Positions 1 through 28,987 of a DNA stretch of 34,306 nt are shown here, one piece after another. This DNA is from Thermoproteota archaeon (lineage in GTDB: Archaea > Thermoproteota > Methanomethylicia > Methanomethylicales > Methanomethylicaceae), in NCBI GenBank assembly GCA_030055575.1, contig JASFYL010000008.1:1-34306 (forward strand), in the 5' to 3' direction. Position 1 is the stretch's first letter, and the number at the start of each line of letters is the position of its first letter. A program made the position numbers and the translations under genes. The notes under the pieces were generated by a model, which saw only the letters and a program-made list of their open reading frames with translations, ran no database searches and was not told where the DNA came from.

Positions 1-1613
1 GCAGGGTGACGCGCCCGAGGCTTCCCACAGGGGAGACGATAGAGACCGAGGGTCCCGAGTACGAGTCCGTTTGGGCTCTGGGGCCCAATTGCGGGATAAG
101 CGACCTCAATACCATAGCGGTCGCGAACGATCTCTGCAACAAACTCGGCGTAGACACCATCTCAATGGGTCAGGCAGTGGGATTTCTAATGGCATGCGCG
201 GAGAAGGGAAAGGTTGACCCATCCGCTTTTGGGGTCGATGCTAGGTTTGGGAACACCGATGCCCTGCTGAAGCTGATAAGGATGACTGCTTACAGGGAGG
301 GCGTTGGTGACCTACTCGCTGAGGGGACCAGGTACGCTGCAAAGAAGCTCGACGCGGATGAGTTCGCAATGCATGTTAAGGGGCTCGAGCTACCAGCGTA
401 CGACCCGCGCGGGGTCAAGGGTATGGCCCTCTCCTACGCCACATCGAACAGGGGCGGATGCCACCTCAGGGCCTTTATGATCGTCCCGGAGATACTCAGC
501 CTGCCCAGGTACCTGAACCCGAACTCTTACGACGACAAGGCCGCTCTGACCAAGGTCATGCAGGATGTCTTCGCAGTCTTGGACTCCCTCGTCCTGTGCA
601 AGTACACGACGATGGCGCTCTTCAACACGCTCGCTTTCGAACCAGACTTCTACGCGAGGTTACTCACATGCGCCACAGGTCTCTACGTCGACAGGGAGGA
701 GTTCTACAGGATAGGCGAGAGGATATACAACATAGAGCGCCTGTTTAATGTGAGGGAGGGTTTTGGCAGGAAGGACGATTGCCTCCCGAAGCGCTTTACC
801 GAGGTTCCGATGCCGGACGGTCCGGCTAAGGGCGAGACCGTGGACATGGATAGGTTATTAAATGAGTACTACGCAGTGAGAGGCTGGGACTACAACGGAG
901 TCCCATCGGTAAAGAAGGTGTTGCAGTTGGGACTCAGACCTGTTTATGAGGGTCCGCAGCTCCAGGTTGCGATCGACGAACGGTACCTTAAGGATGCAGT
1001 GCCGATAGCCGAGAAGGCATACAGGGGAGGCGCGGAGATCATCGAGGCTGGAACCCCGCTGATAAAGTCTGAAGGACTAAACGCGGTCCGGACGCTCAGG
1101 AAGGTTTGCCCGAACGCGACTATACTGGCAGACCTGAAGACATTCGACACCGGATGGCTCGAGACCGAGCTCGCAGTGGAGGCAGGCGCAGACATAGTCA
1201 CTGTGATGGGGGCGACCGATGACTACACGATCTCCGACGCTGTGGGCGCTGCCAAGAAGTACAACGTGAAGGTGATGGTGGATCTTATGAACCTCAAGGA
1301 TCCTCTTACGAGGGCTCTCGAGGTCGAGAGGCTGGGGGTCGACATGGTCTGCATGCATGTGGGTATAAGCGCACAGTCGAGGGAACGTGAGGTCGACCAG
1401 AAGATAGCCCTAGTACAGAGCCTGACAAGATCCCTCAAGATTCCTGTCTCAGTCGCCGGGGGCATAAAGCTCGAGGTGGTGCCCCAGATGGTTGGAGCCG
1501 GAGCACGGGTCCTCGTGGTCGGCGGCGCCATAACAAAGTCAGCGAACCCGGAGGAGGCCACTAAGCGTTTCATAGAATTGATACGGTCCTCTTGGGGCAG
1601 ACTGAGGTCCTAA
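1..1613 (+). CDS. AOR-family aldehyde:ferredoxin oxidoreductase (C-terminal part) fused to 3-hexulose-6-phosphate synthase; 5' end outside window
   Basis: The reading frame is open to the window edge (first full codon at 3), so the GTG at 6 is probably internal. The first ~310 visible residues are AOR domains 2/3. They contain the PEYE motif, a pterin-contact segment NDLCNKLGVDTISMG, and the second pterin/cluster motif LDSLVLCK, whose Cys corresponds to the C-terminal [4Fe-4S] ligand of AORs. They end with the usual family terminus YYAVRGWDYNGVP...LGL near 936. The N-terminal domain with the CxxCxxxC ligands lies outside. From about 961 the frame continues without a stop into a full-length (~217 aa) HPS/OMPDC-fold TIM barrel starting LQVAIDE, with the family's DxKxxD motif (ADLKTFDTG), the AGADIVTVMGA strand and a phosphate-binding end SVAGGIK...VVGGAIT. 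AORs oxidise aldehydes (or reduce acids) with ferredoxin; HPS condenses formaldehyde with ribulose 5-phosphate. Domain calls are firm; the substrate of the AOR half is inference. Confidence 0.9.
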   Translation, partial: RVTRPRLPTGETIETEGPEYESVWALGPNCGISDLNTIAVANDLCNKLGVDTISMGQAVGFLMACAEKGKVDPSAFGVDARFGNTDALLKLIRMTAYREGVGDLLAEGTRYAAKKLDADEFAMHVKGLELPAYDPRGVKGMALSYATSNRGGCHLRAFMIVPEILSLPRYLNPNSYDDKAALTKVMQDVFAVLDSLVLCKYTTMALFNTLAFEPDFYARLLTCATGLYVDREEFYRIGERIYNIERLFNVREGFGRKDDCLPKRFTEVPMPDGPAKGETVDMDRLLNEYYAVRGWDYNGVPSVKKVLQLGLRPVYEGPQLQVAIDERYLKDAVPIAEKAYRGGAEIIEAGTPLIKSEGLNAVRTLRKVCPNATILADLKTFDTGWLETELAVEAGADIVTVMGATDDYTISDAVGAAKKYNVKVMVDLMNLKDPLTRALEVERLGVDMVCMHVGISAQSREREVDQKIALVQSLTRSLKIPVSVAGGIKLEVVPQMVGAGARVLVVGGAITKSANPEEATKRFIELIRSSWGRLRS

Positions 1614-1814: not shown

Positions 1815-2354
1815 CTAAGGCTTTCTCCTGAGGACATTGCCGTATGAGTCCATCGTAACGAAGCAGGGTCCGAGATCCTTTACATCCAGGACCCAGACCG
1901 CCTCCGGGTCCCCTAGCTCCCTCCAGAAGACCCCACGTATGCCCGTGATCGACCTGGCTGCAAGCGCGCCAGCGCCGCCGGGGTATTCCATATAGACTGC
2001 CCCGTGCCTCTTGAGCGCCCCGAGCGTGGAAGTGCCCATCCCCCCCTTACCCAGTATGCACCTGAGCTTGGTCCTTTCGATCAGCTCGCCCTCGCTCCTC
2101 TCCATCCTCATGCTAGTGGTCGGTCCTGCCGAGATTACCTTGTTCCCTTTCACGAGCGGACCGCAGTGGTATACCGTTCCGCCCGCGAGGTCGAACGGGA
2201 GTCTGCCCCCGCCCCTGAGTATCTCGAGCGCCCTCAGGTGAGCCTGGTCCCTCATCGTGAACAGCTCGCCCGTGAGGTAGACAACGTCCCCGGCATGGAG
2301 TCTGGTTACCTCTTCACCTCCGAGCCTCGTACCGATCCTGAACTCCTCTCCCAA
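1815..2354 (-). CDS. Class I fumarate hydratase, beta subunit (C-terminal-type)
   Basis: This 179-aa protein matches the beta subunit of two-subunit Fe-S fumarases/L-tartrate dehydratases, which is the C-terminal half of single-chain class I fumarases. Visible family segments are LTGELFTMRDQAH near residue 30, YHCGPLV, SAGPTTSMRM, ILGKGGM, EYPGGAGALAA and a terminal DSYGN. With the alpha subunit it would interconvert fumarate and L-malate in the cytoplasm. The start is TTG at 2354, 6 bases after the alpha-subunit stop, with AGGAGG (minus strand, around 2366-2371) as ribosome site; that site lies in the last alpha codons, so the two are translated from one message. A tartrate dehydratase role cannot be excluded by sequence alone. 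Confidence 0.93.
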   Translation of the reverse strand: MGEEFRIGTRLGGEEVTRLHAGDVVYLTGELFTMRDQAHLRALEILRGGGRLPFDLAGGTVYHCGPLVKGNKVISAGPTTSMRMERSEGELIERTKLRCILGKGGMGTSTLGALKRHGAVYMEYPGGAGALAARSITGIRGVFWRELGDPEAVWVLDVKDLGPCFVTMDSYGNVLRRKP

Positions 2355-2360
2355 CTTACT

Positions 2361-3212
2361 TCAGAACCTCCTTATCACAGCCTCTGCCCCCTCCTGCTCT
2401 ATCACGACCCTCCTGAGCGCCCAGCACTGGATGCTGACTGCAACAGGGAGGCTAGCCGTGTGGCAGTCCGCGAACTCAGCCTTCACTCCGAGCGCTGTTG
2501 TCTTTCCGCCGAATCCCATTGGCCCTATACCGAGCGAATTTATTTCCTGCAGGAGTTTCTCCTCGAGCTCCTTGCCCCTCTCGTCTGGGCTCAACTCGTC
2601 GAGTCTCCTCATCAAAGCCCTCTTGCTGAGCGTCACCGCCCCGTCCAGCGTCCCGCCCACGCCGACACCGACCACGATCGGTGGGCAGGGCTTCGCCCCG
2701 GCGTTCTCTACCGCCTTGGTCACGAAGCTTCTTATACCGTCTGACCCCTGGTCTGGATCGAGCATGGCCGCGGCGCTCACGTTCTCCGAACCAGCCCCCT
2801 TGGCAAGGATCCCGATCCTCGTCCTTCCGTCATGGCTTGGCTCCATGTGAACTACGGGGTTCCATCTGCCGAGGTTGTTCCCAGTGTTCCTCCTGGAAAG
2901 GGGATCGACTATGTTCGCCCTGAGTGGCACTGACTCTGTTGCCAGGGCGACACCCTCCCTAATCGCGTTGAAGAGCTCCCTGCAACCCATGTCGGTCCGC
3001 ACGAAGAAGACCAGACTTCCCGTGTCTTGGCAGACTGGCACACCCCCCTCCCTGGCGAGCCTGATATTTTCGAGCATCGCTGCGATGACCTGCCGGCTCA
3101 GCCCCCCCTCCGACTGCAGCGCCCTTTCCAGAGCCTTCTCGACATCAGGTGGGATGTCTGTCTCAAGGATCCTTATGGCCTCGGCGATGATTTCAGGTTT
3201 CATAGGAGGCAT
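2361..3212 (-). CDS. Class I fumarate hydratase, alpha subunit (Fe-S, N-terminal-type)
   Basis: This 283-aa protein is the [4Fe-4S] catalytic subunit of two-subunit fumarase. The three expected cluster cysteines are visible in VPVCQDTG (about residue 60), GAKPCPPIVVGVG (about 180) and FADCHTAS (about 255). Other family blocks are RANIVDPLSRRNTGNN, ILAKGAGSEN, GGTLDGAV and IGPMGFGGKTTALGVK. It is the first gene of a two-gene operon with the beta subunit, 6 bases downstream. The start is probably ATG at 3212: a TATA-like element at 3236-3245 read on this strand would place transcription start almost at the ATG, giving a leaderless message. ATG at 3203 (MKPE...) is an alternative. Confidence 0.93.
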   Translation of the reverse strand: MPPMKPEIIAEAIRILETDIPPDVEKALERALQSEGGLSRQVIAAMLENIRLAREGGVPVCQDTGSLVFFVRTDMGCRELFNAIREGVALATESVPLRANIVDPLSRRNTGNNLGRWNPVVHMEPSHDGRTRIGILAKGAGSENVSAAAMLDPDQGSDGIRSFVTKAVENAGAKPCPPIVVGVGVGGTLDGAVTLSKRALMRRLDELSPDERGKELEEKLLQEINSLGIGPMGFGGKTTALGVKAEFADCHTASLPVAVSIQCWALRRVVIEQEGAEAVIRRF

Positions 3213-6038: not shown

Positions 6039-6593
6039 ATGGTTGGCATCCGCGCTCGGGTTCTCGTGGCCGACGTGATGACAAAAGACCTCGTGACTCT
6101 CTCAGAGACTTCGACCGCAAGGGAAGTGGCTGTCGCTATGTGTGGCAAGTCTGTAGGTTCGGTGGTGATAACCAAGGGAGGTCATCCTTCGGGCATAATT
6201 ACTGAGAAAGATCTCGTCGAGAGGGTTCTTGTCCGGTCTAGAGATCCAGACCGCACATTAGCCCGGGAGATCATGTCGTCTCCTGTCTCAGTAATTGACC
6301 CGAAGGCAGATGTGATGGAGGCTGCCAGGAAGATGGCAAAGCTGGGCATCCGCCGCCTAGTTGTCGTTGACAAGGGTAACATGGTCGGGATAGTCACCTC
6401 CAGAGACATCGTTTCCACCGCGCCCGAACTGATCGAGGTACTTGCAGATGCCGCCCGCAACAGGATTGTGCCTTCCAGGGAAGGGGAGAGCCTTGCCGGG
6501 TTCTGCGACAGCTGTGAAGAGTGGTCCGAAGACCTCAAGGAGGTCAACGGTCATTTTCTGTGCGAGGTCTGCAGGATGGAGGCTGAGCCCTAA
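6039..6593 (+). CDS. CBS-domain pair protein with C-terminal zinc ribbon
   Basis: The 184-aa protein carries two CBS motifs forming one Bateman module (about residues 8-62 and 75-128: VADVMTKDLVTLSE, GIITEKDLVERV, IMSSPVSVIDP, GIVTSRDIVS). A CxxC...CxxC zinc ribbon follows at about 155-180 (CDSC ... CEVC). CBS modules bind adenosine nucleotides or SAM and act as energy or metabolite sensors; the zinc ribbon suggests binding to a nucleic acid or protein partner. The target is not identifiable. It is first in a run of three CBS genes and starts at ATG 6039. Confidence 0.9.
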   Translation: MVGIRARVLVADVMTKDLVTLSETSTAREVAVAMCGKSVGSVVITKGGHPSGIITEKDLVERVLVRSRDPDRTLAREIMSSPVSVIDPKADVMEAARKMAKLGIRRLVVVDKGNMVGIVTSRDIVSTAPELIEVLADAARNRIVPSREGESLAGFCDSCEEWSEDLKEVNGHFLCEVCRMEAEP

Positions 6594-6688
6594 TAAGCGA
6601 GATCATATCCTGGGTCCAACCGAGGTAAAGTAGACCTCAGTGGGGAGAGGATGCCACTATAGCCAAATTGAGGGGGTATTCTGAAGAT

Positions 6689-7534
6689 ATGAAAAGTGTT
6701 GGTGAATTGATGAAAAACCCTGTCGTAACAGTCTCAAAAAACGATACTGTGGCTAGGGCGAGGAACCTGATGCTGAGGGAGGGCGTGAGCCGGCTAGTCG
6801 TCGTCGAGTGCTCCGTCCCGATAGGCATGATCACGAAGAAAGATCTCGTCGCTGACCTTGCAAAGTACAGGATGCGTAACAGGGAACTCGAATCGATAAC
6901 TGTCTTGGAACTGATGCGGGCTCCTGTCAAGGTAGTGAACGAAGACGCATCCGTCGAGGAGGCAGCAAAGACTATGGTAGAGAGTAACATAAGGGGGCTA
7001 CCCGTCGTCGACTCTGGTGGGAGGCTCGTTGGCATCATCACCAAGACGGACGTGACCTCGTACTACCGTCAGTACTACGGAGGGACACACAAGGTAAACG
7101 AGATCGCGCGCAGGATCGAGGAGACCCCTGTGGTGAGGAGGACGCACTCTCTATATAGGGTCATCGACCTGATGGAAGCACATTCGGCTGACAGGGTGAT
7201 AGTGGAGGAGGGAGGTAAGCCAATAGGGATAATCACGGAGACCGATCTTTCGTTCCTCAAACCAAACAGGAGTACGCCGCCTTTTATAAAAGGAGTCGCG
7301 TTAGAATCTGAGGAGGTCTCTTCTGTCAGACTATACCAACTCCCTACCGCTGAGGCCCTGATGACACACGACCCGATCGTTGTCGAGGACTCCAGCGACG
7401 CCGTCGAAGCGGCAGCAACACTCATGGATAACGGGATCGGGGGGATGCCCGTGGTAAACCGGGAGGGAGATCTGGTGGGGATGGTGACTAAATTCGACTT
7501 CGTCCGGGCAGTGGCTGGGGGTGCCTCTGCATGA
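6689..7534 (+). CDS. Four-CBS-domain protein (two Bateman modules)
   Basis: The 281-aa product consists almost entirely of four CBS motifs: VGELMKNPVVTV, VLELMRAPVKVV, VNEIARRIEETPVV and TAEALMTHDPIVV, each followed by a GxxT(K/E)xDL-type strand. A loop of about 20 residues (including KPNRSTPPFIKG) separates repeats 3 and 4. It probably binds adenine nucleotides; no catalytic domain is attached, so it should act by binding a partner. ATG 6689 is preferred because GAGGGGG lies at 6670-6676; TTG 6668 is an in-frame alternative that would cover that site. Its stop overlaps the next start as ATGA. Confidence 0.9.
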   Translation: MKSVGELMKNPVVTVSKNDTVARARNLMLREGVSRLVVVECSVPIGMITKKDLVADLAKYRMRNRELESITVLELMRAPVKVVNEDASVEEAAKTMVESNIRGLPVVDSGGRLVGIITKTDVTSYYRQYYGGTHKVNEIARRIEETPVVRRTHSLYRVIDLMEAHSADRVIVEEGGKPIGIITETDLSFLKPNRSTPPFIKGVALESEEVSSVRLYQLPTAEALMTHDPIVVEDSSDAVEAAATLMDNGIGGMPVVNREGDLVGMVTKFDFVRAVAGGASA

Positions 7535-8334
7535 GGCTGACAGAGATCGCCACTAAGGATGTTCCAGTCCTGAACAAGAACCGCCCTCTGCTGGACGCGT
7601 TGGAAGTGATGGAGAAGGATGGGTTAGAGAGCATCTGCGTCTCTGACGACGGCAAGATCGTCGGTAGCATCTCTAACACCGACATACTGGCTAAGATAGG
7701 GACCCAGCGGCTCAGGGCTGTCTCCCCGGGTTCGCTCTACATATCTGGTTTTATGAGCGAGTTCCCTGTGACTCTGTCGGACGACACCCCAATCAGGCGC
7801 GCAGCGAAGTTTATGCTAGAGCTCGACGCCGGGCTTCTGCCGATGTTCTATGGCGAGACCTTCTTGGGCGTTGTCTACAGGATAAACATGGCTAGGGCAG
7901 TGCATGACAGGACCGAAGAGGTATCCCAATTGATGCGTAAGAAGTTCCCCTCGGTCAAGTCAAACGATCGCGCCATCCATGCAAGGAAGATGATCCTAGA
8001 GAGCAGGACCTCAGTTCTGCCTGTCCTTAACGAGGACGGTAGGTACCTTGGCGCAGTGACGAGAGGCAGCCTGCTCAAGGCGCTTATAGATTTCCATATG
8101 TATGTCCCGGAGAAGCACCAGAAGGCTAGGATCCGGCAGTTGCAGATATCGAATGTGATGAAGGCAGACTATCCGTCCATTGGCGGCGATGCTAGGCTGT
8201 GCGATGCCGCAAGAAAGATCTTGGAGGAGCGCGCCCTTGGCATAGTGGTCGTCGAGGGGATGAGCCCTATTGGCTTGCTGACAATCGACGAGATCCTGAA
8301 CTTCATAATCAGCACCTTCCCTGAGGAGCAGTGA
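7531..8334 (+). CDS. Four-CBS-domain protein, divergent paralogue
   Basis: The 267-aa product again has four CBS-like units (LTEIATKDVPVL, ISGFMSEFPVTL, VSQLMRKKFPSV, ISNVMKADYPSI). The repeats are more diverged than in the preceding gene; for example unit 2 ends GVVYRINMARA. Start ATG 7531 overlaps the upstream TGA (ATGA), indicating translational coupling, and the next gene starts 1 base after its stop. It probably forms part of one ligand-sensing assembly with the preceding CBS protein; that is inference from coupling. Confidence 0.88.
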   Translation: MRLTEIATKDVPVLNKNRPLLDALEVMEKDGLESICVSDDGKIVGSISNTDILAKIGTQRLRAVSPGSLYISGFMSEFPVTLSDDTPIRRAAKFMLELDAGLLPMFYGETFLGVVYRINMARAVHDRTEEVSQLMRKKFPSVKSNDRAIHARKMILESRTSVLPVLNEDGRYLGAVTRGSLLKALIDFHMYVPEKHQKARIRQLQISNVMKADYPSIGGDARLCDAARKILEERALGIVVVEGMSPIGLLTIDEILNFIISTFPEEQ

Positions 8335-17096: not shown

Positions 17097-17112
17097 CTAT
17101 TGATTGGATATT

Positions 17113-17883
17113 ATGATCGGTGGTTTTTTGCAGACCATCAACTATCCGTTCGGAAGACTTGAGCTCGGGCATCACATGGATCTTCTACTCAACGGGAAAG
17201 CCCTCGAGTCGGATTTGAGGCGTCTTAGGGATATCGTGCCGGTTCTGAGAAACAAGGAGTTTGCGGCAAAGGAGGATCCAGAGCGGGTACTTTACAGGAT
17301 GTACAGGTCGGTCACGGCGCTTCCAGTGCACGCCGAGTTCTTCAGGATGCACTCCGTCCGTTTTGACCTCACAGTGATGGATGCTTGCCTGCTTGACCGA
17401 GAGCCGAACAAGACGCTAGGTCATTTGCACCCCGAGGCTAGACCGGGGCTCTCCTACCCGGAGCTCTACCAGGTCCTTTACGGCAGAGCATGTTACTTGC
17501 TGCAGAGGTTCCAGGGCAGGAGGGTGATAGACTTCGTGGTTAACGAAGCAGGTCCAGGGGATGCAGTGCTCATCCCACCGAACTACGGTCATGTTACAGT
17601 CAACATAGGGCATACGCCGCTAGTGATGGCGAATCTGGTTTCGACCCAGTTCTCATCCATCTACGGCATTTACCGTGAGCTAGCAGGCGCCACTTACTAT
17701 CTTCTCGATGACGGAAGCTTGGAACCTAACCCCTGCTACCGAGACCATCCTGAGCCTTCGAGATCGGACGAGAAATTCCCTGTATGCAAGGATATATACA
17801 CAGATTTCCTCTCATGCCCAAACAGCTTCAGCTTCCTCAATGACCCTACTAGGCTGCCGTCCAGGTTCTGCCGAGCTAGGTGA
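17113..17883 (+). CDS. pgiA: Cupin-type (archaeal) glucose-6-phosphate isomerase
   Basis: This ~256-aa protein carries the cupin PGI signature: metal ligands in KTLGHLHPEA (His104, His106), the Glu in SYPELYQVLYGRACYLLQ (Glu117), and a second His in IPPNYGHVTVNIGH. It interconverts glucose 6-phosphate and fructose 6-phosphate in a metal-dependent way. It is longer than the ~190-aa Pyrococcus/Thermococcus enzymes because of a C-terminal extension of about 50 residues with four Cys (PCYRD, PVCKD, LSCPN, RFCRAR). The start may be ATG 17113 or TTG 17104. It heads a cluster of sugar-phosphate genes but is separated from pgk by about 110 bases with its own promoter. Confidence 0.9.
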   Translation: MIGGFLQTINYPFGRLELGHHMDLLLNGKALESDLRRLRDIVPVLRNKEFAAKEDPERVLYRMYRSVTALPVHAEFFRMHSVRFDLTVMDACLLDREPNKTLGHLHPEARPGLSYPELYQVLYGRACYLLQRFQGRRVIDFVVNEAGPGDAVLIPPNYGHVTVNIGHTPLVMANLVSTQFSSIYGIYRELAGATYYLLDDGSLEPNPCYRDHPEPSRSDEKFPVCKDIYTDFLSCPNSFSFLNDPTRLPSRFCRAR

Positions 17884-17953
17884 GCCCATACCATGGCTTA
17901 TGCCGCTGTGACTGTGTGCCTCTTTCAATTTATGCACTGACAGACCTTAAATC

Positions 17954-17962
17954 TTTTAAATA
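17954..17962 (+). promoter_or_regulatory. TATA box for pgk
   Basis: TTTTAAATA is centred near 17958, predicting transcription start near 17984. This favours the ATG at 17993 over the upstream ATG at 17975 as the pgk start. Confidence 0.6.
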
Positions 17963-17992
17963 CATCTTTCTCAAATGTGGACAGTGAGCAGT

Positions 17993-19240
17993 ATGGGAAG
18001 CCACTCCCTCCCGTTCTATACCATGGATGATTTTGCCTTTGAAGGCAAGAAGGTCCTGCTCAGGGTTGACATCAACTCGCCGATTGATCCCAAGACCGGG
18101 GCTATAATCGACGACACGAGGATAAAGAGCCACGCGAAGACTGTGAAGGAGCTCGTCCGCATGGGAGCCTCTGTGGCGATCCTAGCACACCAAGGGCGCC
18201 CTGGGGACAGCGACTTTACGAACCTTGAGGCGCACGGAGAGCTACTATCCCGATACCTCGACATTGAGGTGAAATACGTAGAGGACATCTTTGGACCTTA
18301 TGCCAGGTCTGAGATATCGAAGATGAGGCCCGGGGACGTCCTGCTTCTTGAGAACACGAGGTTCTACTCCGAGGAGAACATAGAAAAGGTGCCCGAGGCA
18401 CAGGCGAAGACCTTCTTGGTAAGGAGGCTGTCGCCCCTATTCTCTGTCTATGTAAACGATGCGTTCGCGACTTCCCACCGCTCCCACCCCTCCTTGGTAG
18501 GATTCCCGGTCGTGATGCCCTCGGCAGGGGGTCGCCTGCTCGAGGCAGAAGTGGGGATCCTGAGCAGCCTCTTCAAGCCCTCCTCCAAGCCTTGCGTCTT
18601 TGTACTGGGAGGGGGTAAAGTTTCAGACTCTGTACAACTTATGGAGACGCTCCTACCTAAGGGACTGGCTGACAGGGTGCTCTTGACAGGAATGATATCG
18701 CACCTCTTCCTCATCGCGCGAGGGCATAGGGTCGGGAAGGCGACTATCAAGATAATGGAAGGGAAGGGGCTGAATGCGCTTCTCCCCCGGGCAGAGGCTT
18801 TGCTGAATAAGTACGGGGAGATGATACTCACCCCTTCAGACGTCTCTTACCTGAAGGGGGATCAGCGGGTGGAGACGAGCTTGAATGGTATCCCAGACGA
18901 CGCCCCGATATACGACATTGGAGAGTCTACGATTGAAGAGTACTCGAAGATCCTGAAGGAAGCCAAGACGGTGATAATGCGAGGTCCGGCTGGCTACATC
19001 GAGGACCCGCGCTTCACGAAGGGATCCGAGAAGCTGCTACTTGCACTGGTTGGTGGAAGCGCAGTCTCTCTCCTCGGGGGCGGGCACCTCAGGGCGATAT
19101 CCGAGAGGCTGGGGATAGCCGACAAGATCGGTTACTTCAGCACTGGAGGGGGGGCATTCATAACGTTCCTCTCTGGAGACAAGCTCCCTGCTTTGGAAGT
19201 TTTAATAGCCTCTAAGCAGAAGTTTAGGTCAGACAGGTGA
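17993..19240 (+). CDS. pgk: Phosphoglycerate kinase
   Basis: The ~415-aa protein is a full archaeal PGK: N-terminal YTMDDFAFEGKKVLLRVDIN (binds 3-phosphoglycerate), ILAHQGRPGD, LLENTRFYSEE, VNDAFATSHRSHPSLVGFP, FVLGGGKVSDSVQLME, then the nucleotide domain with MRGPAGYIEDPRF, SLLGGGHL and STGGGAFITFLSG. It transfers phosphate between 1,3-bisphosphoglycerate and ADP. It lies 16 bases upstream of GAPDH, with which it is functionally paired and probably co-transcribed. ATG 17993 fits both the TATA position and the usual N-terminus; ATG 17975 adds six residues. Confidence 0.97.
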   Translation: MGSHSLPFYTMDDFAFEGKKVLLRVDINSPIDPKTGAIIDDTRIKSHAKTVKELVRMGASVAILAHQGRPGDSDFTNLEAHGELLSRYLDIEVKYVEDIFGPYARSEISKMRPGDVLLLENTRFYSEENIEKVPEAQAKTFLVRRLSPLFSVYVNDAFATSHRSHPSLVGFPVVMPSAGGRLLEAEVGILSSLFKPSSKPCVFVLGGGKVSDSVQLMETLLPKGLADRVLLTGMISHLFLIARGHRVGKATIKIMEGKGLNALLPRAEALLNKYGEMILTPSDVSYLKGDQRVETSLNGIPDDAPIYDIGESTIEEYSKILKEAKTVIMRGPAGYIEDPRFTKGSEKLLLALVGGSAVSLLGGGHLRAISERLGIADKIGYFSTGGGAFITFLSGDKLPALEVLIASKQKFRSDR

Positions 19241-19256
19241 TCGGGAGGCATATTGA

Positions 19257-20276
19257 TTGAAGATTAGGGTTGCCATAAACGGCTACGGTACGATAGGCAA
19301 AAGGGTTGCAGACGCAGTCCTAAAGCAGAGAGACATGATCCTCGCAGGCGTAACAAAGACAAAGCCGAACTTCGAGGCAAACATTGCCAAGAGCAAGGGC
19401 ATTAAAGTCTACGCTGCGTCCGCCGACAAGCTTAAATCTTTCCAAGATGCCGGCATGGACGTCTCCGGTACGCTTGAGGACCTGATCAGAGACTGCGACG
19501 TGGTTGTCGACTGCACGCCTGGGAAGGTGGGCGCAACCTACAAGCCCATGTATGAGAAAGCTGGAGTAAAGGCGGTCTTCCAGGGAGGAGAGAAGCACGA
19601 TGTCGCGGGATTCTCATTCAACGCGGTTTGCAACTACAGTGAGGCCTTGGGCAGGGACTTTGTCAGGGTCGTCTCGTGTAACACCACCGGTCTATGCCGT
19701 AGCTTGTATGCACTGGACAGGGCCTTTGGGGTAGATAAGGCTAGGGTAGTGCTGATCAGGCGAGGCGCAGACCCTTCGGAGGACAAGAAGGGTCCGATAA
19801 ACAGCATCCTCCCAGATCCCGTGACAATACCTTCTCATCACGGGCCTGATGTACAGAAGGTTCTCCCTCACATAGGCATAACTACTTCCGCATTCGCCGT
19901 TCCGACGACGCTAATGCATGTCCACTGGCTAAACCTTGAGCTTGGCAAGAGTGCCTCCGAGGGAGATGTGCTGTCAGTGCTTTCGTCTTACCGAAGGATA
20001 ATGCTTGTCTCTGCGTCCGAGGGTGTTGACTCCACCTCCCAGATAGTCGAATACGCGAGGGATCTCGGTAGGCACAGGTACGACATGCCTGAGCTAGTGG
20101 TATTCAAGGAGTCCGTGAAGTCGTTCGGGCGCGAGCTCTACCTTACACAGGCCGTCCACCAGGAATCTATCGTTGTACCAGAGAACATCGACGCCATAAG
20201 GGCAATGACTAGGCTGTGCGAGACCGCAGAGGAATCGATGAAGATGACCGACGAGAGCTTGGGGTTGGGAGGGTAG
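19257..20276 (+). CDS. gap: Type II (archaeal) glyceraldehyde-3-phosphate dehydrogenase
   Basis: The 339-aa protein has the dinucleotide fold VAINGYGTIGKRVADAV at the N-terminus, the catalytic Cys in VVSCNTTGLCRSLYAL (about residue 140), and the family block HVHWLNLELG. It is the phosphorylating archaeal enzyme (NAD(P)+ dependent), not the ferredoxin-linked GAPOR. Start TTG 19257 is supported by GGGAGG at 19243-19248, and the protein begins MKIRVAINGYG as homologues do. It follows pgk, giving the pgk-gap pair of triose-phosphate metabolism, and is followed 8 bases later by a universal stress protein. Confidence 0.97.
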   Translation: MKIRVAINGYGTIGKRVADAVLKQRDMILAGVTKTKPNFEANIAKSKGIKVYAASADKLKSFQDAGMDVSGTLEDLIRDCDVVVDCTPGKVGATYKPMYEKAGVKAVFQGGEKHDVAGFSFNAVCNYSEALGRDFVRVVSCNTTGLCRSLYALDRAFGVDKARVVLIRRGADPSEDKKGPINSILPDPVTIPSHHGPDVQKVLPHIGITTSAFAVPTTLMHVHWLNLELGKSASEGDVLSVLSSYRRIMLVSASEGVDSTSQIVEYARDLGRHRYDMPELVVFKESVKSFGRELYLTQAVHQESIVVPENIDAIRAMTRLCETAEESMKMTDESLGLGG

Positions 20277-26485: not shown

Positions 26486-26614
26486 GCAGGTGTGTACATT
26501 ATATAAGAGGATCCATATTTTGTGCACATGTGCCCAAATTGGAATTTTTGAGTTCACATAACATATTTATGCCATTTTCGTCGATAGTTTTACCTTGCTG
26601 TATAGGTGAAAAAC
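26486..26614 (+). promoter_or_regulatory. Promoter region of the S-layer-like gene with palindrome
   Basis: Two TATA-like elements are present: ATTATATAAG (26499-26508) and ACATATTTATG (about 26561-26571). The second predicts transcription start near 26592 and a leader of about 23 bases before ATG 26615. Between them, GCACATGTGC (26524-26533) is a perfect 10-base palindrome suited to a dimeric regulator. AGGTGA at 26603-26608 is the ribosome site. Confidence 0.5.
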
Positions 26615-28987
26615 ATGAACACTAAAGTTTTTAGTGTATCGATAGTAGCTCTACTTTTGCTTCCAGCGATATTCGCCGCATTTCCATTGGTCTCAGCGAC
26701 AATCACTAACAGGCCGCATGTATTCATAGTTGATGAAGAGGGAAATTTGATTGATGGCGATCCTTTGACAGTCGATGCCGGAGGTAACATTTGCATAAGT
26801 CTAGAGGGAATGACAATCACTGGTGCCCAAGTTTGGCTATGGCTTTCGAGGTCAGGAAGCGCCGACGCCAATCAGGGTGACGGTGATAGGTGGTATGCAG
26901 GACCCTTCTACATGGGGGATGTTATCAGCGAATCTTCTACGCCCTACACATTCACCCCAAATGATACAAACCCAGATAGGCGCGTTCCCTATCCGTTCAA
27001 TCTTGAGGGAAGGAACTACAGCTATACCGTAGGGAATTATTGGATTAACGGAACAATTCCGATGATGGTTCTCGGCGGCGTTACATATTGGCTTAAGATC
27101 ACCGATGTAGATCCGAGAACTACTTCCTCGATACCCTCTTCGGATGTTGGAGTCTCTACTAACAGGATAAACTTCAGTTCGATCCTTTCTATGTCTCCCC
27201 ATGAAGGGGCGCCTGGCACTCCCATTACAATCTATGGATCCACAGTTTCCGAAGGAGTGTACAGCGTCTACATGAACGGGCAATATGTCACTAGTGTAAG
27301 CGCCCAACTGAACAATGAAGGCGGTTGGGAGTGGACCGGGTTCTCTGTTGAGTTCCCTGCGATTGACCTGGGGAACAAGTACACTTGCGGCGAGATATTC
27401 GAATACCCAATGAGTGAGGACATCGAGGTGACGTTGGTCGACGGGTCGGACAACACCGTCTTCACAGACTACTTCACCGAGTACTACAGAGAGGTCTGGA
27501 TCGACTCCGACGCGTTCCCGTGCTACGAGGCAGTCGAGCCTAACGAAATGCTTCTGGTGTTCGACGGGTGCTACTACGGCTGCGAGGAAGGCTGCGGTAT
27601 TGTTTTCTACTCTGGAGAGCAGTACAATGTCAGCCTCAACTGGTTCTATTCCGGAGGAAGTGCCGACATATACATCGGTTCGCTACTTGTTGCTTCAGGA
27701 ATCCCGCTTGATGGCAATGGAGCTGTAGAGAACTATGTGATCACTATTCCTGACGACATCAAGTCCGATACATACAACTTCACGGTTGTCGACAGCAACG
27801 GCGTAGAGTACAGCTTCGAAGTCTGCGTGCTCCAGACAAAGAATGTAGCAATTGAATTCGATGATGACACCGGGAGCTGCGGTGACGAGGTCAACCTATG
27901 GTTCTACAACATGTACGATTACATCGGCGAACAGCTGACCGTCTGGTTCTATGCTTCAGAGTGCGATGCCCCGGTACTCCTATGGAACGGCACTGTCAAT
28001 GAAGTAAACTTCTATATACCTGTTACCGTGCCGAGCTCAGCCGGCGGCGAGCGGCTTGTCGCAGTTTACGACATGTACGGGAATGACCTGATTGCACCTG
28101 ACGGAAGCACGGTCTACATCTACACGACATTCAATGTGATCCCCAAGGTGTGGGTCGAGCCATCCAGCTTCGGTAACGACGGCTTGACATTCTGGGTCAA
28201 GGGATGCGGCTTCGAGTATGATTGGCCGTACCACGTAGCAGTGGATAACCAGCACGTCGCGGTTGGTTATGTCTACGAGGGCTTCGTATTGGCAAATTGC
28301 TCCGGCGATGTAGCGATTCAGTTCGTCAAGGCTGGCTTCAGACCAGGCGTACACACAGTAGCCTTCTACAAAGTAGAAGGAGATGGGAACATGGGCAACT
28401 ATCCGATCGCTGCATATGCGATCTTCACGGTGACCACAACAGGCGACCTAATCGTAGGAGACATTGAAGATTACATGGATTACAAGTTCTCTGAACTGAA
28501 CGCCTCGATAGTGGCGATATACGAGTCTGCATCCAGCGACATCGCAGAGAAGTACGCAATAATCCAGACTGACCTCGGTCTGATCCAGGCGAACCTCAGT
28601 GCATTGGACGCCAAGATCGTAGCCCTCCAGGACAATGTGGCAATAATCCAGACTGACCTCGGTCTGATCCAGGCGAACCTCAGTGCATTGGACGCCAAGG
28701 TTGTGGATCTTCAGGGCTCAGTAGCTACTGTGCAGACATCCCTCGGAACACTGCAAGGCAATGTGACATCCATCAGCGGCAATGTCGCCACTATTAAGAC
28801 TGACGTGGGTACTATCAAGGCAGACCTCTCTTCTGTTAAGAGCGATGTGACGTCGGTTAAGGACAGCGTCTCCAAGTACCTGCCGGTCGATCTCACCCCT
28901 GTCTGGATCGCTGTCGTCCTAGCCCTCATAGCTGCCATTGCATCCATATACGCAATAGTCGTAATCAGGAGCAAGATCGCGGCTTAA
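26615..28987 (+). CDS. S-layer-like surface protein with coiled-coil stalk and C-terminal membrane anchor
   Basis: The ~790-aa protein has a signal peptide (TKVFSVSIVALLLLPAIFAA, cleavage near SAT), then about 590 residues of beta-rich, acidic, Tyr/Asn-rich ectodomain with many N-x-S/T sequons, including an IPT/Ig-like segment (MSPHEGAPGTPITIYGS). A Cys-rich patch (CYYGCEEGC) lies at about residues 320-330. Residues about 625-760 form a coiled coil with regular repeats (IIQTDLGLIQANLSALDAK twice), followed by a C-terminal helix (VWIAVVLALIAAIASIYAIV) and RSKIAA. This order (ectodomain, coiled-coil stalk, membrane anchor) is that of archaeal S-layer or stalk proteins. Codon use is more AT-rich at the start than in neighbours. 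GTG 26606 overlaps the ribosome site, so ATG 26615 is the start. Confidence 0.85.
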   Translation: MNTKVFSVSIVALLLLPAIFAAFPLVSATITNRPHVFIVDEEGNLIDGDPLTVDAGGNICISLEGMTITGAQVWLWLSRSGSADANQGDGDRWYAGPFYMGDVISESSTPYTFTPNDTNPDRRVPYPFNLEGRNYSYTVGNYWINGTIPMMVLGGVTYWLKITDVDPRTTSSIPSSDVGVSTNRINFSSILSMSPHEGAPGTPITIYGSTVSEGVYSVYMNGQYVTSVSAQLNNEGGWEWTGFSVEFPAIDLGNKYTCGEIFEYPMSEDIEVTLVDGSDNTVFTDYFTEYYREVWIDSDAFPCYEAVEPNEMLLVFDGCYYGCEEGCGIVFYSGEQYNVSLNWFYSGGSADIYIGSLLVASGIPLDGNGAVENYVITIPDDIKSDTYNFTVVDSNGVEYSFEVCVLQTKNVAIEFDDDTGSCGDEVNLWFYNMYDYIGEQLTVWFYASECDAPVLLWNGTVNEVNFYIPVTVPSSAGGERLVAVYDMYGNDLIAPDGSTVYIYTTFNVIPKVWVEPSSFGNDGLTFWVKGCGFEYDWPYHVAVDNQHVAVGYVYEGFVLANCSGDVAIQFVKAGFRPGVHTVAFYKVEGDGNMGNYPIAAYAIFTVTTTGDLIVGDIEDYMDYKFSELNASIVAIYESASSDIAEKYAIIQTDLGLIQANLSALDAKIVALQDNVAIIQTDLGLIQANLSALDAKVVDLQGSVATVQTSLGTLQGNVTSISGNVATIKTDVGTIKADLSSVKSDVTSVKDSVSKYLPVDLTPVWIAVVLALIAAIASIYAIVVIRSKIAA
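28556..28699 (+). repeat. Two identical 60-base repeats, 84-base period, in the S-layer stalk
   Basis: Bases 28556-28615 and 28640-28699 are identical over 60 bases, separated by 24 bases, giving an 84-base (28-residue, four-heptad) period. Identity at the DNA level, including silent positions, points to recent duplication or gene conversion in the coiled-coil region. Confidence 0.95.

Follow-up and report, generated by a model that had tools for sequence, protein, structure and literature searches.

The window analysed here (the whole stretch of DNA, 34,306 nucleotides) is contig C87 of a 1.36-Mb genome assembled in 97 contigs (G000). It begins inside a gene: a frame of 536 codons (positions 3-1613, plus strand) runs uninterrupted from the 5' end of the contig, at which it is still open. 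The end of another contig (C25), when reversed, overlaps the start of the window exactly over 126 bases and encodes the N-terminal part that the window lacks. Joined, the two give a protein of 828 amino acids that begins MERILRV; residues 1-292 are encoded on C25 and the C-terminal 536 codons lie in the window. A reading made earlier from the window alone (the sequence-only reading) had claimed that this frame fuses an aldehyde:ferredoxin oxidoreductase (AOR) to 3-hexulose-6-phosphate synthase (HPS), which is borne out by the uninterrupted frame and by matches to Pfam and TIGR03128.

The Pfam family AFOR_C was matched at residues 12-311 of the window frame (E = 5.3e-119) and the OMPdecase/HUMPS family at residues 318-523 (E = 1e-34). 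The first 606 residues of the joined protein align end to end with the AOR of Pyrococcus furiosus (3-606 against 7-604 of the 605 residues of 1aor), the natural C-terminus of AOR being reached at residue 606 (window position ~944). Positions 3-944 therefore encode AOR domains 2 and 3 (residues 293-606). A complete HPS domain, supported by TIGR03128 and by PDB entries 9lj9 and 3ajx, starts at residue 609-610 (~951) and occupies positions 951-1610 (residues 609-828). The junction (positions 945-953) is a few residues long with no flexible linker, judging from the alignment and from a pLDDT of about 88-95 at model residues 601-620, and the linker is short and alike across all aligned fusions. These limits agree with the earlier placement of the junction at 936-961, between two domain boundaries. 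As to the extent of the AOR, its C-terminal half does lie in the window, but the N-terminal domain and three of the four [4Fe-4S] cysteines are on C25, which completes the N-terminal AOR domain as recovery of the upstream contig had been expected to do. Both AFOR_N and AFOR_C were matched in two relatives (L014 and L118).

The residues that hold the cofactors of AOR are conserved in the fusion. Catalytic Glu313 of the P. furiosus enzyme aligns with Glu313 (positions 63-65), catalytic His448 with His446 (462-464) and the fourth [4Fe-4S] ligand, Cys494 in 1aor, with Cys491 (597-599). The four cluster cysteines (C288, C291, C295 and C494, P. furiosus numbering) do not vary among the 28 fusions aligned, nor do Glu313, His448, Arg76, Arg182, Asp343 and Asp489. 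Equivalents of Glu332 and His383 were replaced in nearly all fusions, and likewise in a majority of the unfused AORs used for comparison. In P. furiosus AOR this pair belongs to the dimer-bridging iron site, which is not general to the AOR-type subgroup and so is no defining mark of the family. Tyr427 is kept in the alignment of the joined protein with 1aor; together with Glu313 and His448 it belongs to the second-shell residues assigned to AOR catalysis (PMC12096430). All cofactor and catalytic residues tested are common to the fusion, 1aor and other members of the AOR-type subgroup (9mqx, 9g7j, 8c0z). In addition to the C-terminal HPS and the loss of Glu332/His383 in nearly all cases, the fusions differ from 1aor by a stretch at residues 499-522 (positions 621-692) that is conserved in fused AORs alone and includes a short insertion which standalone AORs lack. 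From its conservation, this stretch is a candidate docking surface for HPS.

The AOR half scored 617 bits against 1aor and 377.7 bits against the P. furiosus formaldehyde:ferredoxin oxidoreductase (FOR, 1b25), which rules out FOR-type identity. FOR shares superfamily and fold with the fusion, and the activity proposed below would be similar to its own, but the fusion sequence is of AOR type. An AOR-type enzyme has been measured on formaldehyde (Km 93 uM, Vmax 25 U/mg), with acetaldehyde preferred (PMC10816221), and the AOR of Clostridium autoethanogenum oxidizes formaldehyde poorly (PMC12727526). Formaldehyde is thus the presumed rather than the evident substrate of the AOR half.

The HPS half scored 206.2 bits against TIGR03128, the NCBIfam equivalog-domain model for HPS (curated cut-off 200 bits), and 198.6 bits against PDB 9lj9. 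The core Asp, Glu, Lys and His are kept, including the DxKxxD catalytic motif (DLKTFD, positions 1131-1148) and the HVG of the catalytic His region (HVGIS, positions 1356-1370). In the latter, the usual Asp of HxGxDxQ is replaced by Ser in the Methanomethylicia fusions (positions 1368-1370 in the window); Asp is retained in L014 and L038-L041. A charged RERE insert follows the Ser of HVGIS, and model confidence is low there. The predicted activity of the HPS half is aldol/retro-aldol chemistry with ribulose 5-phosphate and formaldehyde.

AlphaFold2 gave a mean pLDDT of 93.4 and a pTM of 0.90 for the 827-residue fusion L005, and 92.4 and 0.91 for the distant fusion L014. Foldseek TM-scores were 0.96 (by target) to 1aor, 0.91 to the FOR 1b25 and 0.90 to the HPS 3ajx. 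A pTM of 0.9 over domains of ~600 and ~220 residues indicates that their relative placement, as well as each domain singly, is predicted with confidence, and the models suggest that the AOR and HPS domains pack rigidly against each other.

A MoaD/ThiS-like gene (PF02597) adjoins the fusion gene and is divergent from it. On C25 it lies at L015:1084-1362 and its product ends in FFPPVAGG. The same arrangement was found at 23 loci in the families f1, f4 and f5; some of these may be one genome under two identifiers, so the number of genomes is equal or slightly lower. Strict adjacency of MoaD genes to AOR genes is known, and a role in synthesis of the tungsten cofactor has been proposed (PMC1779556). 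The MoaD-like neighbour supports a functional tungsten AOR half. At the 3' side, genes for the alpha and beta subunits of fumarase (window 1815-3212, minus strand) are convergent to the fusion gene and have no evident link to it. In G030, too, fumarase-like genes follow the fusion (L030; identified from the beginning of the sequence only).

Elsewhere in the window, three successive genes at 6039-8334 encode CBS-domain proteins (two, four and three CBS matches). Genes for a cupin-type glucose-6-phosphate isomerase, phosphoglycerate kinase and glyceraldehyde-3-phosphate dehydrogenase stand in a row at 17104-20276, followed by a phosphomutase gene. A 793-residue open reading frame (26606-28987) matched no Pfam family convincingly and had weak, coiled-coil-like matches only.

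Because the window begins within the gene, which extends across a contig end, an assembly chimera, or a missed stop or frameshift at 930-965, had to be considered. In a scan of GTDB genomes, ten more loci matched the window protein along its length at 51-92% identity. They come from genomes named Methanosuratincola, Methanomethylicales/Verstraetearchaeota MAGs and one unplaced archaeon (L014), and each encodes a full-length fusion uninterrupted by stops. When 398 genomes of the phylum were searched with the full 828-residue protein, the joined architecture was found in 17 genomes of the window's own family (f1, that of Methanosuratincola), five of f5, two of f4 and one of f2 (G115), these three families being of the same class or order. 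It also occurs outside Methanomethylicia, in four other families of the phylum (G136, G035, G005 and G007). Some fusions are cut at contig ends (G005 and G222), and G175 keeps the HPS end alone. In total, about 30 archaeal genomes, mainly of Methanosuratincola and its kin in Methanomethylicia, carry AOR-HPS; the bearers are thermophiles and for the most part methanogens. Far from being absent from all related genomes, the full-length fusion has the same junction in these independently assembled genomes, on contigs as long as 1.32 Mb (G127) and 1.02 Mb (G204). The chance of an artefact is therefore negligible, and the fusions in relatives rule it out.

In a tree of AOR domains, one branch (SH-aLRT 99%) parts 28 fusions from 13 unfused AORs of the phylum and 1aor. 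Fused and unfused HPS domains were not separated in the first HPS tree because of the long branches of L118 (G115) and L105 (the Fae-HPS of G109) and the contig-truncated L063. With these three and the long-branched L120 left out, a second HPS tree has one branch (95%) that parts 27 fused from 21 unfused domains. A single fusion event is the simplest reading of the two trees. Between the window protein and L005, dN is 0.063 (AOR) and 0.042 (HPS) at a dS of about 1.3. The resulting dN/dS of about 0.05 (AOR) and 0.03 (HPS) indicates strong purifying selection, and therefore that both halves are maintained. Together with the invariant catalytic residues, these values rule out decay of either half.

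Other fusions of HPS are known. The sequence-only reading had named fusions with formaldehyde-activating enzyme (Fae) or hexuloisomerase (PHI) in archaea; both exist, but the list was incomplete, since HPS-MenG/RNase-regulator fusions occur as well (PMC5241800; L045). HPS-PHI (NF041755; PDB 9lj9) and HPS-MenG/RNase-regulator (PRK07028) involve the same HPS family, which is N-terminal there and C-terminal in AOR-HPS; moreover, the AOR-HPS protein ends after HPS, PHI being a separate gene. Closest in plan is Fae-HPS (PRK13307), in which a C-terminal HPS likewise follows an enzyme that handles formaldehyde. Fae-HPS has been proposed to capture the formaldehyde that ribulose 5-phosphate synthesis sets free (PMC5241800). 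In AOR-HPS, by contrast, a tungsten AOR with no relation to Fae takes the place of the latter and would yield formate and reduced ferredoxin rather than methylene-tetrahydromethanopterin. The Fae domain (PF08714/TIGR03126) had no match in the AOR-HPS protein or in the G000 genome. No earlier report of the AOR-HPS architecture was found in the open-licence literature searched, and the main text of a published catalogue of archaeal fusions mentions only Hps-Phi (PMC11237513). The component families are already known and the design resembles Fae-HPS in its logic; a tungsten oxidoreductase acting as a formaldehyde sink on the same chain would be a distinct solution.

Gene content was compared across 26 genomes. 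AOR-HPS was the sole HPS in 11 of the 12 f1 fusion genomes sampled, and PHI was a separate gene in nearly all genomes compared (C9:15312-15845 in G000). Fae, Mch and formate-THF ligase were absent throughout the f1 genomes compared and PFL from every f1 fusion bearer compared. PurP was present in f1, usually in two copies. Transketolase-N occurs in roughly half of the f1 genomes and is missing from all fusion bearers examined outside f1. Further AOR genes occur in fusion genomes, for example on C16 of G000. In f5, AOR-HPS occurs together with Fae and mostly Mch, so that strict replacement of Fae is ruled out as a general rule; G076 has it alongside Mch and a second HPS. MCR was present in f1, f2 and f5 and absent from the other fusion bearers examined (G076, G136, G035, G005 and G007), and these five rule out that the fusion is tied to methanogenesis.

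Genomes without AOR-HPS have other arrangements. G109, of the same class, encodes a Fae-HPS fusion (L105:775-2076, 590.9 bits to PRK13307) together with Mch. G062 and G133, with standalone HPS, carry formate-THF ligase. In G097, an f1 genome where AOR-HPS was not detected, HPS is encoded by two standalone genes, one of which (L120:3860-4507) stands directly before a gene for a PFL-like glycyl-radical enzyme (C48:17580-19349).

Because the equilibrium of HPS lies on the side of fixation and formaldehyde is toxic, an HPS that makes pentose needs a sink for its second product. AOR-HPS is probably (about 0.6) a bifunctional enzyme of pentose synthesis in a reversed RuMP pathway, in which released formaldehyde is oxidized in place. 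PHI would convert fructose 6-phosphate to 3-hexulose 6-phosphate, which the HPS half would cleave to ribulose 5-phosphate and formaldehyde. Near the site of release, the AOR half, with its predicted bis-pterin tungsten cofactor and [4Fe-4S] cluster, would then oxidize formaldehyde to formate, with reduction of ferredoxin. This oxidation would pull the unfavourable lyase reaction and keep free formaldehyde low, and the formate could feed PurP, a formate-dependent enzyme of purine synthesis. In Culexarchaeia, where the genes are separate, it has been suggested that an AOR could oxidize formaldehyde from the RuMP pathway; that report mentions no fusion (PMC9723716).

We infer the substrate of the AOR half, the direction of the reaction, any channelling and the use of formate. 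That both halves share formaldehyde had already been proposed from the window, with two directions on offer; the shared intermediate is well upheld by the domains and their junction, and of the two directions, oxidation in pentose synthesis is favoured. It is favoured because most f1 genomes have PHI and this sole HPS but no Fae, Mch or formate-THF ligase, because a sister lineage (G109) uses Fae-HPS, and because reduction of formate by ferredoxin is thermodynamically unfavourable. Against this reading stand the C2 preference of AOR-type enzymes, the presence of Fae or Mch in f5 and G076, and the Ser in HxGxDxQ. A more specific version is conceivable but tentative: formaldehyde may pass internally from the HPS lyase site to the tungsten site, so that ribulose 5-phosphate, formate and reduced ferredoxin would be made in one step, supplying both ribose and formate for purines where the tetrahydromethanopterin C1 pathway is absent.

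The C2 preference also lends some weight to the idea that the substrate of the AOR half is a different aldehyde (acetaldehyde, glyceraldehyde or one derived from sugar phosphates) and that fusion serves oligomerization or co-expression. AOR-type enzymes are unspecific and favour substrates of C2 and longer (PMC12727526, PMC10816221), and the AOR half is not of FOR type. However, that the only HPS of a genome has stayed joined to a single AOR over such evolutionary depth suggests an intermediate common to both, Fae-HPS follows the same logic, and other AORs are available for general aldehydes (C16 in G000), which makes this rather unlikely. A formaldehyde safety enzyme, whose halves serve side by side as sinks for external formaldehyde or for formaldehyde from the handling of methanol or methylamines rather than as a lyase-oxidase pair, would suit the methyl-using methanogens among the bearers, and HPS is able to run in the fixing direction. 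This too is unlikely, given that the fusion also occurs in the five MCR-less genomes and that it is the sole HPS of most f1 genomes, in which no other RuMP route to pentose is evident where transketolase is missing.

The opposite direction, in which the AOR half reduces formate with ferredoxin and HPS fixes the formaldehyde on ribulose 5-phosphate as C1 assimilation, is very unlikely. The formate/formaldehyde couple has a potential close to or below that of ferredoxin, and uphill reduction of formate would require a strong pull. Both reactions are reversible in principle and many bearers are H2-using methanogens (MCR present), but f1 lacks Fae and Mch, and the patchy occurrence of transketolase leaves regeneration of ribulose 5-phosphate unassured. 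Reduction of acids by AORs with low-potential donors is on record (PMC9295118); however, Methanosuratincola petrocarbonis does not use formate as an energy source or electron donor (PMC12244365).

The proposed oxidation of formaldehyde during pentose synthesis bears on how some archaea make ribose. Where the common pentose phosphate pathway is lacking, archaeal ribose is presumed to come from cleavage of hexose into pentose and formaldehyde. How such archaea dispose of the formaldehyde has been established mainly for Fae and tetrahydromethanopterin, and AOR-HPS offers a second, testable answer for lineages that do not have them. The predicted compact arrangement of the two domains makes formaldehyde channelling directly testable. 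The cultivated M. petrocarbonis is from the same genus-level group as fusion bearers, and its published medium contains tungstate (PMC12244365). AOR-HPS would tie a tungsten enzyme to nucleotide synthesis and explain the supply of formate for PurP.
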